Assembly: GCA_030647435.1 (NCBI GenBank)
Contig: JAUSJX010000048.1
Location: 62,001-126,000 of the forward strand
Direction of reading: 5' to 3'
Length of the DNA stretch: 64,000 nucleotides
DNA from: Candidatus Rokuibacteriota bacterium
GTDB taxonomy: Bacteria > Methylomirabilota > Methylomirabilia > Rokubacteriales > CSP1-6
Positions 41,730 through 46,970 of this stretch are shown one piece after another. How positions within the stretch are numbered: position 1 is the stretch's first letter; each line of letters begins with the position of its first letter. The position numbers were made by a program, and so were the translations under genes. The notes beneath the pieces were generated by a model. That model made no database searches. It was given only the letters and a program-made list of their open reading frames with translations, and was not told the DNA's origin.

Positions 41730-42257
41730 TTAGCTCGTAGTGAGGCGGGCGACGATCTCGTCAAACACCTTGTCGGCCAGCACCCTGACCTCGTCGCGGG
41801 TGAGCGTCTGGATCGGGTGCGGCACCATGATCGTCTTGTAGGCGTCGGCGCCCAAGGCGGATGCCTGGGCGCGCGCGGCCTTGGCGAACTCGGTCGAGAT
41901 CACCGTCGCCGCCGGCAATCCCTGATCTTCGAACCACACGCCGTCGTGCACACTGCACGTTGTGCAGGACCCTCAGTCGGCGAGGGCCTCGATGACGGCG
42001 TCGCTCGTCTTCAGGATCTCCGCCCGCAGGTCTTCCGGCGCGGGCCGCGCGAAGGTCGGCTTCTTCTTCCTCAGGATGGCCTTCGGCTTGGCGCGCTCGC
42101 GGAGCAGCTCTTCCACGCGGTCGAGCAGGTGGTCGCCCTTGGCCTTGGAAATGTCGAGGAGCGTGATCACCTTGCCGTCGAGCGTGGCCAGGCGCGCGGC
42201 CGTCTTGCGCGGCACCGCGACGGAGTCGGTCGGATCCAGGAACTCTTCGGTCGTCAT
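41730..42257 (-). CDS. UGSC-family selenoprotein (in-frame TGA = selenocysteine)
   Basis: 175 aa if TGA 41975-41973 is read as selenocysteine (U95). A standard caller splits it into 94 aa and about 73 aa. Across the TGA the frame reads 'EALAD-U-GSCTTCSVHDGV', exactly the UGSC motif of the selenoprotein family known from metagenomes (Cys forms exist). U95, C98 and C101 make a redox centre. The N-terminal part 'KVITLLDISKAKGDHLLDRV' and the C-terminal 'MVPHPIQTLTRDEVRVLADKV' are both needed for the fold. A short hairpin follows the TGA. The start overlaps the upstream gene (ATGA). Confidence 0.92.
41945..41959 (-). promoter_or_regulatory. Candidate bacterial SECIS hairpin
   Basis: CGTGCA-GTG-TGCACG on the minus strand is a perfect 6-bp stem whose GUG loop begins 20 nt after the UGA, within the usual 16-37 nt for SelB recognition. 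An alternative stem CTGCAC-AAC-GTGCAG overlaps it. Confidence 0.6.
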
Positions 42258-43309
42258 AGGTCCTCCCGGGGCGATTGTACCTTCTTAATGACCAGGCGCG
42301 ACATCTTCGGGAAGGTCCAGCCCGGGATGACGGCCGAGAAGCGGCCCGCGGTGCCGCCCGCCACCACGAACTTGAGGTTGGCCGGCTCGCGGAACTTCGG
42401 GATCAGCGTCGCGTCGGTCTCCGGGTGCGAGAACTTGGCCATCACGTGAGCCGGCAACCCATCGCCGCCCTCCAGCCCTGGGATCAGCTCGCTGACGGGC
42501 TTGCGCAGCCGGTGCCAGAGGAAGTCGCGCATGTCGGCCTTGCTCCAGCCGTCGCCGGCGATGGTGCGCGCGTGTTCGGGCGAGAGCACGACCAGCGTGT
42601 CACCGTGGTGCGTGGACTTGTGGTGCGAGATGACTTCCAGCGAGCGCGAGATGGTGATGAGGAGGTCCTTGGCCGTCAGGCTCCGGTGGTCATAGACGCC
42701 GTGGGGCGCCTCGGCCGCGAAGGCCGCGACCGTGCTCTCGTCCTGGGCGAAGCCGTGCTCGACGGCCAGCGAGTCCCAGGGGTTCTCTTCCTCGTGCTCG
42801 CCGATGCAGTAGGTGTAGCGCCCCGGGTGCGCCATGGTGGACATGCTGATGGTCCGGGCCGACGCTCCACCCACGTTGGCGACGATGAGCCTGAGCGCCC
42901 GCCCGATGGTCGCGTTGGCGCGCCAGCCGGGCCCGAAAACCCCCGCGGCGCAGTTGATGTCGAGCGCCTTTCGCGCGGGGCCGTTGACGATGAAGAGCGG
43001 CGAGTGAAAGTTGGTCGTGGCGGAGACGCCGTGGAGATCGAAGGCGTCGTCGCACATGGCCTCGACCCCGGCGATCACGACGGGCAGGTACTCGGGGCGG
43101 CAGCCGGCCATGACCGCGTTGACCGCGATCTTCTCGACGGTGGCGCGGCCGAAATTCGGCGGCACCAGCGCGACCAGCTCGCCGGCCTCACGCCCCGAGC
43201 CCGCGACCATCGCGGCGACGCGCTCGCGCGTGGGAGGAACGACGGGAAGGCCGTCGGTGACGCCGCGCTCGAAGAGAGTCTCGAAGGGATCCTGCTCAGG
43301 CTGAGGCAC
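42254..43309 (-). CDS. Conserved unknown protein coupled to the UGSC selenoprotein
   Basis: 351 aa from GTG 43309, the first start after the DUF3047 stop. I do not recognise a named family. Visible features are 'GVTDGLPVVPPTRERVAAMV' at the start, two blocks containing Cys ('INCAAGVFGPGWRANATIGRA' region and 'RYTYCIGEHEEENPW'), several His ('HHKSTHHGD') and a C-terminal 'LKFVVAGGTAGRFSAVIPGW'. No signal peptide and no membrane helix. The 4-bp overlap with the selenoprotein suggests a fixed partner, perhaps the substrate-binding subunit of a redox enzyme. Confidence 0.8.
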   Translation of the reverse strand: MPQPEQDPFETLFERGVTDGLPVVPPTRERVAAMVAGSGREAGELVALVPPNFGRATVEKIAVNAVMAGCRPEYLPVVIAGVEAMCDDAFDLHGVSATTNFHSPLFIVNGPARKALDINCAAGVFGPGWRANATIGRALRLIVANVGGASARTISMSTMAHPGRYTYCIGEHEEENPWDSLAVEHGFAQDESTVAAFAAEAPHGVYDHRSLTAKDLLITISRSLEVISHHKSTHHGDTLVVLSPEHARTIAGDGWSKADMRDFLWHRLRKPVSELIPGLEGGDGLPAHVMAKFSHPETDATLIPKFREPANLKFVVAGGTAGRFSAVIPGWTFPKMSRLVIKKVQSPREDL

Positions 43310-43320
43310 AGGCGCCCCGC

Positions 43321-43974
43321 TCAGGGCTTGCAGAGGCGGAAGTTTGCGTAGTCGCCCTGCGCGGTCGACTTCGTGTCGTCGGAGTCGGTGAGGACGGCGA
43401 TCCCGGAGGCCTTCGGCGTCTCGGTCTCGTCGAAGAACTTCTTGTAGTCCTCGAAGATGTTGACCCGCTCCTCCATCCACGAGCCCTTCCGGTCGGTGCC
43501 GTTCCGGATCACCAGCGCCTGGGTCAGGCCGCCGCTCGAGGAGAGACGCGTGCCCACCGGCACGACCGCGCTCCAAATGTACTTGAGCGACTTCACCGAC
43601 CAGGGCGTGTGGGGGAAGACGGCGTAGACGGAGACGGCGCTGTCGTTGGTCTTGGACTGCCGTTCGTCCGGCCCCGCCGGGAACTCAACCGGACGCCAGG
43701 ACCAGGCGAGCATCGGGTATGTCTTGGGGTCCCACTCGTACTGATTGGCGGCCTGGATACCAAGGCCCTTGGCGATGGCGTGGAGGAAGCGCAGGCCGTC
43801 CATCTCCTGGATCGAGTAGACTTCGCGCCCGGCGTCCTTGCGCGGCTTCCAGTCGGGCGGGAACTCGCCGACCTTTCCCCTGGAGAAATTCTCGACGGTG
43901 ATGCACTCCTGGGCACCCGCCGGCTCCGCCAGGAGCGCGGCGGCGACGAGGGCGATGACGAGACGCACCGGCAC
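43321..43974 (-). CDS. DUF3047 family exported protein
   Basis: 217 aa. Signal peptide 1-21 (VAAALLAEPAGA-Q). 'ENFSRGKVGEFPPDWKPRK' and 'YEWDPKTYPMLAWSWRP' match DUF3047, a beta-rich extracytoplasmic family of unknown function. The start is GTG 43974, 4 nt after the VWA stop, and the partner of the selenoprotein begins 11 bp after its stop, so the Cox-like genes and the selenoprotein genes may share a transcript. Confidence 0.85.
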   Translation of the reverse strand: MPVRLVIALVAAALLAEPAGAQECITVENFSRGKVGEFPPDWKPRKDAGREVYSIQEMDGLRFLHAIAKGLGIQAANQYEWDPKTYPMLAWSWRPVEFPAGPDERQSKTNDSAVSVYAVFPHTPWSVKSLKYIWSAVVPVGTRLSSSGGLTQALVIRNGTDRKGSWMEERVNIFEDYKKFFDETETPKASGIAVLTDSDDTKSTAQGDYANFRLCKP

Positions 43975-43978
43975 GGCG

Positions 43979-45388
43979 CTACCGCCCGCGGCGCCACCAG
44001 GAGTGGACGAGTTGGTCCACCACCTGCACCAGCTGGCCGACGGTGCGGCATTCCTTGACGATGTCGCACGCGGGCGAATACAGCGGCATCACGCTGTCGC
44101 CAATGCCCCAGCCCCACTGCCCTTCCGGATTCAGCCAGATGATGCCCTTGACCCGCTCCCGGATCTGACGGATCGCCCACGCCTGGGGGTCGTTGTAGTT
44201 GTTGCGCGCGTCGCCCAGGACAAGCACCGTCGTCTTCCGATCGAGCGAGTCTATCTCCGTGCGCACGAAGCGGCTGAAGGCGTAGCCGAAGTCCGATCGG
44301 CAGTGGTAGTCCACCGGCGAGGACTTGAGCGCCCACTCGATCGCGTGGTCCACCGGGTAGGTCTTGAATGCCTGGGTCACCTCGGCGATCTCCGAGACGA
44401 AGACGTACGAGCGCATGCGCGAAAAGCACTCCTGCAGGCTCCAGACCAGTTGGAGCATGAAGCGCGAGGCGTTGCGCACCGAGTCGGACACGTCGCAGAG
44501 CGTGACGAGCTTTGGCTTCTCCCGGTGGCGCCGCCGGAAGCACACCTCCATCGGGACTCCACCATACTGCAGGCTCTTCCTGATGGTCCGGCGCGAGTCG
44601 AGCCGCCCCTTCTCCTCCTGGCGCTGGCGCAGGGCGAGGGCGTCCTTGATCTTGCGTGCGAGGCGCGCGACCACCGCCTTCATCTGCGCCACCTCGTCCG
44701 GCGAGAGCGCGAAGAGCGGCTTGTCGGTCAGCACTTCGCGCGTGAGCTTCTCGCCCTGCCGGTAGGCTCGGCGCTCGAGCTCGCGCTCGACGTGCTGGCG
44801 GATCATGCGCCGGAAGGCCTCGAGGCGCAGGTCGAGGTAGTTGCGGATCCGCGCGAGCATGCCCGGGTCCATGCCCTGGGCCTCGAGCAGCTGCATGATG
44901 CGCGAAAGATCGCGCTCGATGGCCTCCCAATCGAACTTGTCGTAGATGCGCCGCGAGAAGTAGCCGATCTGCAGGAAGTACATCAGCCGCTCGAGCCCGG
45001 CGCCGTGCCCCTGGCCGCGGATGGCCATCTCCATGTCCGTGCCCTCGCCGCGGAGCATCAGCTCGGTCAGCTCGTCCATCTCCATGTTCTCCTGCGCCAT
45101 GAGCTGGTCGAGCATCTGCTGGATGCGCGGATCCTCCGGTCCGAGCGCCTTCTTGAGGCCCGCGCCGAGCGCCTCCAGGTCGAGGAAGTAGAGATCGAAC
45201 AGGCGGTCGAAGGTCGGCAGGTCCCGCGACTCCTTGATGAGCGTGGATGCCAGGGCGGCCTTGAAGGTGTCGCGGTGCTCGAGACCGATTTCCGAGGAGG
45301 CCGACAGCGCGTCCATTGCCTCGCTGGGCGAGATGCGAAGCTCCGCGCGCCTCAGGTCGCCGATGAACTCGAGTATTCTTTGATCCAT
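43979..45388 (-). CDS. VWA-domain protein, CoxE-like
   Basis: 469 aa. A long helical N-terminal part precedes a von Willebrand A domain with the MIDAS 'LVTLCDVSDSVRNASRF' (DxSxS), and 'LDRKTTVLVLGDARNNYND' near the end. CoxE-like proteins pair with MoxR AAA ATPases to mature metal enzymes such as CO dehydrogenase. A MoxR gene is two genes upstream, but no CODH subunit is in the window. There is no Shine-Dalgarno before ATG. Confidence 0.87.
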   Translation of the reverse strand: MDQRILEFIGDLRRAELRISPSEAMDALSASSEIGLEHRDTFKAALASTLIKESRDLPTFDRLFDLYFLDLEALGAGLKKALGPEDPRIQQMLDQLMAQENMEMDELTELMLRGEGTDMEMAIRGQGHGAGLERLMYFLQIGYFSRRIYDKFDWEAIERDLSRIMQLLEAQGMDPGMLARIRNYLDLRLEAFRRMIRQHVERELERRAYRQGEKLTREVLTDKPLFALSPDEVAQMKAVVARLARKIKDALALRQRQEEKGRLDSRRTIRKSLQYGGVPMEVCFRRRHREKPKLVTLCDVSDSVRNASRFMLQLVWSLQECFSRMRSYVFVSEIAEVTQAFKTYPVDHAIEWALKSSPVDYHCRSDFGYAFSRFVRTEIDSLDRKTTVLVLGDARNNYNDPQAWAIRQIRERVKGIIWLNPEGQWGWGIGDSVMPLYSPACDIVKECRTVGQLVQVVDQLVHSWWRRGR

Positions 45389-46055: not shown

Positions 46056-46970
46056 CTAGTCGAGGTCGGCCAGCACCTTGTCGAGCGCGCCCTTGACCCG
46101 CTCGAGGTCCTTTTCGTGCTTGACCAGCATCGTCAGCGTGGATTCGACCAGGTCGCGGTCCAGGCTGTCGGCATTCAGGATGATGAGCGAGCGCGCCCAG
46201 TCGAGGCTCTCCGACACGGAGGGCGCCTTGCGCAGGTCGAGCCCGCGGATGCGCTGCACGGTTGTCACGACGGTCTGGGCCAGCCGCTCGGAGATCTCCG
46301 GCACCTTCAGGCGGATGATGGCCAGCTCCTCGTCCGGCGGCGGGAAGTCGATGAAGAGGTGCAGGCACCGACGCTTGAGCCCGTCGGAAAGCTCGCGCGC
46401 GTTGTTCGATGTCAGCACCACCAGCGGGATGTTCGTCGCCTTGATGGTGCCGAGCTCCGGCACCGACACCTGGAAGTCCGAAAGGACTTCAAGCAAGAAC
46501 GCCTCGAATTCCGGCTCGGCCTTGTCGATCTCGTCGACCAGCAGGACGACGGGGTCGGGGGACTCGATGGCCTGCAGCAGCGGCCGCGGCGCGAGGAAGC
46601 GGTGAGAGAAGAAGGCATCGTCCTGGCCCGAGATCTTGGCGACCGCATCCGCCAGGGACGGCGCGTCGGCGATCAGCTCGCCGATGCGCTCGCGCAGCAG
46701 CTGGGTGTAGAGGAGCTGCTTGGCGTACTTCCACTCGTACAGCGCCTTGCCCTCGTCGAGACCTTCGTAGCACTGCAGACGGATCAGCCGCCGGTTGGTG
46801 ATCTCGGCCAGCGTCTTGGCCAGCTCGGTCTTGCCGACGCCCGCCGGGCCTTCGATGAGCACCGGCCGTCCCATGCGCTCCGCCAGAAAGACCACGGTGC
46901 AGATTCGGCGGTTGGCGATGTAGCGGGCGTTCTTGAAGTGCTGCTGGACGTCCTCCGGAGACTGGAACAT
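46056..46970 (-). CDS. MoxR-family AAA+ ATPase (CoxD-like)
   Basis: 304 aa. Walker A 'GPAGVGKTE' at 41-49, Walker B 'VVLLVDEIDKAE', sensor 'TSNNARELSDGLKRRCLHLFIDFP'. MoxR ATPases act as chaperones for metal-centre insertion with VWA partners; the CoxE-like VWA gene is two genes on. ATG 46970 follows AGGAG, and a TACACT -10-like box lies about 30 nt before it. First gene of this minus-strand run. Confidence 0.93.
   Translation of the reverse strand: MFQSPEDVQQHFKNARYIANRRICTVVFLAERMGRPVLIEGPAGVGKTELAKTLAEITNRRLIRLQCYEGLDEGKALYEWKYAKQLLYTQLLRERIGELIADAPSLADAVAKISGQDDAFFSHRFLAPRPLLQAIESPDPVVLLVDEIDKAEPEFEAFLLEVLSDFQVSVPELGTIKATNIPLVVLTSNNARELSDGLKRRCLHLFIDFPPPDEELAIIRLKVPEISERLAQTVVTTVQRIRGLDLRKAPSVSESLDWARSLIILNADSLDRDLVESTLTMLVKHEKDLERVKGALDKVLADLD

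Follow-up and report, generated by a model that had tools for sequence, protein, structure and literature searches.

The window, i.e., the whole stretch of 64,000 nucleotides that was analyzed, carries a predicted selenoprotein gene of the UGSC family (41730..42257) on the reverse strand, as are all window features given here with coordinates. The gene spans 175 codons, from ATG (42257-42255) to TAA (41732-41730) by direct reading, with one in-frame UGA (41973..41975) that is the predicted selenocysteine (Sec) codon, residue 95, of the UGSC/UxxC motif. A preliminary description had reported a single frame with the TGA at 41975-41973 as its sole break and a family hallmark upon read-through; sequence and frame were as described, and translation across the TGA gave EALAD-U-GSCTTCSVHDG. 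The start codon overlaps the stop of an upstream gene (ATGA), and a Shine-Dalgarno sequence, GGGAGGA (42261..42267, direct reading), lies within the end of that gene. The second half of the UGSC gene, described earlier as having neither a start nor a ribosome-binding site of its own, indeed has no Shine-Dalgarno sequence, but an in-frame GTG is present at 41951-41949, which opens a 73-aa ORF and is positioned in the loop of the hairpin described below.

The upstream gene (42254..43309) encodes a 351-aa protein without a Pfam or NCBIfam family, hereafter the partner. It is preceded by genes for a DUF3047 protein (43321..43974) and a VWA_CoxE-domain protein (43979..45388), both kept in many sister loci, and an AAA (MoxR-like) ATPase (46056..46970). 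The segment 43979-46970, comprising VWA_CoxE, a 181-aa familyless protein and the AAA ATPase, was conserved upstream of the window's UGSC orthologue group. The window also contains a convergent thiolase-like gene and a ChsH2-type OB protein.

Family Assignment

When read with Sec, the protein matched Pfam UGSC (PF24696) over residues 6-173 with 169.9 bits (E 7e-50, cut-off 25) and the NCBIfam model NF041046, UGSC (seleno)protein, with 166 bits (cut-off 125). Both scores exceeded the curated cut-offs, in agreement with the membership proposed in the preliminary description, whose further remark that the gene is mis-annotated by default was overstated, since the family is covered by an NCBI (seleno)protein model. 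Judged by these profiles, the window gene is a new member of an already known family and nothing different in kind. UGSC is an environmental selenoprotein family of uncharacterized function (GOS survey, PMC2398784; PMC13188914). Since 2008, its members have been listed with the most abundant selenoproteins of the environment, without a function. For one Methylomirabilota genome, 63 predicted selenoprotein genes have been reported (PMC13188914).

Selenocysteine Machinery and Conservation of the UGA Codon

The best-named relatives were Candidatus Rokuibacteriota, which places the window within or close to this group. The host draft genome (5.79 Mb, 98% complete) contained a tRNA-Sec with a UCA anticodon (71 bits), adjoined by selA and selB on contig 56, and a selD (G000:C98:94090-95046) with a TGA of its own, i.e., Sec-containing. 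The machinery that the preliminary description had named as the thing to look for was thus all found, as expected of an organism that makes selenocysteine. Among related genomes, selA was found in 56 of 60. No selA match was obtained in four UGSC-positive drafts (G002, G003, G025, and G035), one of them rated 100% complete, a minor discrepancy for which gaps in the assemblies could account.

Twelve UGSC paralogues were found in the host genome (G000, contigs 137, 133, 48, 131, 141, 76, 35, 142, and 29), each with exactly one TGA and in differing gene contexts. The family was present in 45 of the 60 related genomes, where each of the roughly 150 copies among the matches listed had exactly one TGA and neither TAA nor TAG, so that the other stops proposed earlier as a possible refutation did not appear among them. 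Loci retrieved by way of the partner, with origins in Binatia, Chloroflexi, Proteobacteria, Acidobacteria, and other groups, likewise had TGA in nearly all of their UGSC genes; the genes in L149, L150, L152, and L163 had one TGA each. The alignment with homologues suggested in the preliminary description therefore gave TGA in near and distant relatives. Two isolates (L215 and L217), namely Candidimonas nitroreducens and Mycobacterium gordonae, have TGC or Cys in its place. Sec95 and Cys98 were the sole two invariant residues of the family.

Mean dN/dS against 18 orthologues was about 0.32 before the UGA and about 0.30 after it. Both halves of the gene are under similar purifying selection, and the second half is therefore probably translated in the same frame. 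If the UGA were an ordinary stop, the locus would hold two genes, or one gene broken as a pseudogene or by a sequencing error, and the 73-aa ORF beyond the stop would fit such a reading. That reading is very improbable given the recurrence of TGA in all paralogues and across many phyla, the selection on both halves, the conserved hairpin, and a GTG start without a Shine-Dalgarno sequence.

A Conserved SECIS Hairpin

A candidate bacterial SECIS core hairpin (41945..41959) follows the UGA, with a 6-bp stem (arms 41959-41954 and 41950-41945), a GUG loop (41953-41951) and 19 nt between UGA and loop. Its coordinates agreed with the 6-bp, GUG-looped hairpin reported earlier as beginning 14 nt past the UGA. 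The published bSECIS model calls for a loop of 3-9 nt, a stem of 4-16 bp, a distance of 16-37 nt from the UGA, a G within the first two loop positions, and a free energy of -7.5 kcal/mol or lower (PMC13188914). The window hairpin fits the geometry (3-nt loop, 6 bp, GUG, 19 nt spacing), but its 15-nt core, at -6.3 kcal/mol, misses the published energy value unless flanks are included. The 39 nt from the UGA reached -11.9 kcal/mol, but via an alternative pairing, and a rival hairpin, CUGCAC-AAC-GUGCAG, overlaps and competes with the SECIS hairpin in the window. Taken alone, the window hairpin showed no unusual stability (z = +0.71 over 53 nt; z = +1.16 against synonymous shuffles).

Comparison of 91 non-redundant loci gave a clearer signal. 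The stability of the 48 nt after the UGA exceeded that of shuffles with synonymous codons (mean z -1.36, SE 0.11), compared to a z of about 0 in the remaining stretches of UGSC genes. With the UGA numbered 1-3, the six stem pairs between nucleotides 17-22 and 26-31 were formed in 97.4%, against 68.8 ± 1.6% in synonymous shuffles and no more than 65% in slid controls, and the loop started with GU in 91/91 loci. Compensatory changes were found, in which Cys was replaced by Trp (UGC to UGG) together with GUC for GUG in the next Val codon, or the equivalent, thereby turning a C-G pair into G-C; G-U and A-U substitutions in the stem were also seen. The hairpin was gone in both Cys homologues. These comparisons make a strong case that the hairpin is a real bacterial SECIS, although the window sequence alone is no proof. 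Being conserved, it offers a compact, family-wide signature for annotating UGSC genes, which are otherwise shown as two fragments.

Reading of the UGA by a near-cognate tRNA, rather than Sec insertion, would be compatible with the reading frame taken by itself. It is scarcely credible given the tRNA-Sec, selA, selB, and selD of the genome, the replacement of the codon by Cys and not Trp in homologues, and the expected loop of the conserved SECIS. The window gene is thus almost certainly a selenoprotein gene, as judged by all these sequence comparisons.

A Constant Partner Protein

Neither the partner nor its profile matched a family or structure when searched against Pfam, NCBIfam, and PDB. 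The matches of the partner-family profile were the UGSC parts of fusion proteins, plus one weak chance match. The partner adjoined UGSC, before or after it, in 54/54 loci selected through UGSC and belonging to the window's class only. In a wider set from many phyla, UGSC was near 71 of 80 partner genes, although these loci were fetched through the partner and the set is biased towards pairs. Strict single-frame fusions numbered seven, six in the order UGSC-partner and one partner-UGSC, and the pairwise distance matrices of the two proteins correlated (r = 0.83). A natural fusion is located at 5548-7134 of L031. Pairing, fusions, and correlated distances are strong evidence for a two-component protein, and it is likely that UGSC and its partner form an obligate two-component enzyme.

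The AlphaFold2 model of the partner was confident (pLDDT 90). Compared with PDB, it gave no significant fold match; the best value was 3e-3, and the matches were class I fumarase and cyclic-amide-hydrolase-like fragments (TM about ≤0.3). In L146 and in Poribacteria loci, the partner match fell into two pieces, as if split by an in-frame stop, but the cause was a short internal deletion. The deleted partner genes, five from Poribacteria and one from Rokubacteria (L164, L169, L170, L183, L199, and L146), were without a nearby UGSC gene.

Relationship to GrdB and Predicted Fold

UGSC aligned Sec on Sec with the C-terminal domain of GrdB, with an hhalign probability of 95% and a score of 47.7 against an alignment of nine GrdB proteins from the same organisms. 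Controls did not exceed 9.9 in 100 column shuffles or 6.9 for unrelated families, and the score with the motif masked was 24.7. No match at E up to 10 was obtained between UGSC and the PF07355 (GRDB) profile, nor did hhalign match UGSC to the shorter GrdB-like proteins when the wide alignment was used (0.6%). The partner showed no resemblance to GrdB or GrdE by hhalign (GrdE 0.2%). The alignment of UGSC with GrdB indicates that it is remotely homologous to the GrdB C-terminal Sec domain. A GrdB/GrdE-type pair occurs in the host genome (G000:C106:47718-50214). In GrdB genes of the host and relatives, a TGA lies just past the PF07355 model, within the motif UGTSTRCG or UGTCNRCG. The relatives L124-L131 encode short proteins similar to GrdB, in which an in-frame TGA is part of U-[GP]-[LVI]-C and the PF07355 match ends at that stop.

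The AlphaFold2 model of UGSC (pLDDT 96) showed a five-fold alternation of strand and helix, with Sec in the loop connecting strand 3 to helix 3. Lumazine synthase and folds of flavodoxin-like or similar alpha/beta type led its PDB matches, and thioredoxin was absent among the 50 PDB matches listed. UGSC proteins were suggested to be Trx-like in 2008 (PMC2398784), which the alternating alpha/beta model and the non-thioredoxin matches do not support. In line with the antioxidant or detoxification roles given in selenoprotein surveys, UGSC could be a stand-alone thioredoxin-like thiol oxidoreductase with an incidental partner, for which the UxxC motif speaks. Such an enzyme appears unlikely in view of the predicted fold, of a partner always adjacent and at times fused, and of the many cassettes that sit among catabolic genes.

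Gene Neighborhood of the Cassettes

In the host and its relatives, UGSC-partner cassettes had as neighbors, some named by sequence inspection only, oligopeptide ABC and TRAP-type transporters, IclR-like regulators, CaiB-type CoA transferase, acetamidase/formamidase, and LigA/LigB ring-cleavage dioxygenase. In sister genera (L076, L079, L081, L082, L084, L085, L108, and L144), genes for LigB-/LigA-like dioxygenases come immediately after UGSC; they are absent from the window. A Pfam tally of the neighbors was diverse, with no single pathway, and thus indicated no substrate. The position of cassettes beside transporters and CoA-, amide-, and ring-degrading enzymes is consistent with different substrates.

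If UGSC and its partner formed an enzyme linked to a metal or cofactor, the neighboring MoxR-like and VWA_CoxE proteins might mature it, and the AAA and VWA_CoxE genes do lie upstream on the same strand, both in the window and at several sister loci. These genes accompany only the window's orthologue group, however, other cassettes being without them, and the invariant columns of the partner contain no Cys or His, which makes such maturation improbable.

Proposed Mechanism

The explanation favored here, which we consider very likely as a whole, is that of a UGSC selenoprotein with SECIS-directed Sec, whose gene is paired with that of the partner. SelB and tRNA-Sec would insert Sec at the UGA (41975-41973), guided by the downstream SECIS hairpin. 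Sec95 and Cys98 would form a redox center in the loop that leads from strand 3 into helix 3. The alpha/beta domain carrying this loop presumably has a common ancestor with the Sec-bearing C-terminal domain of GrdB, and the partner would provide the remainder of the enzyme, probably substrate binding. Sec may then attack the substrate and bring about its reductive cleavage, as in GrdB/PrdB, and would be regenerated via a Sec-Cys bond that cellular thiols reduce. The 12 paralogous cassettes of the host genome may serve different substrates.

From the gene contexts and remote homology, we infer a catabolic two-component selenoenzyme with variable substrates. By analogy with GrdB, reductive chemistry of the same kind is suggested for UGSC and its partner, with somewhat less than even confidence. 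More tentative again is the broadest reading, that the pair represents a widespread, unrecognized class of selenoenzymes, two-component and sometimes fused, which apply GrdB-type Sec chemistry to many organic substrates. Such a class, if true, would lie outside the Stickland reductases and occur in soil, groundwater, and marine bacteria. The constant partner, the fusions, and the remote kinship to GrdB turn a family without a function into an experimentally testable case.

Comparison with Known Systems

The window gene resembles described members of the UGSC family (PF24696, NF041046; PMC2398784) in sequence, length, UGSC motif, in-frame UGA, and bSECIS. No description of the constant partner, the GrdB link, or the 12-fold expansion in one genome was found in the literature searched. 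A conserved domain fused to UGSC proteins is designated 'Unknown_1' in PMC2398784 (Figure S1A); it is like the partner in being a conserved domain fused to UGSC, and the two may be the same. Compared to GrdB/PrdB of glycine and D-proline reductase (PF07355), UGSC lacks the N-terminal domain of GrdB as well as a Pfam GRDB match and has a partner unrelated to GrdE, whereas it is alike in its Sec UxxC following a strand, a similar 80-residue tail, and a two-gene organization.
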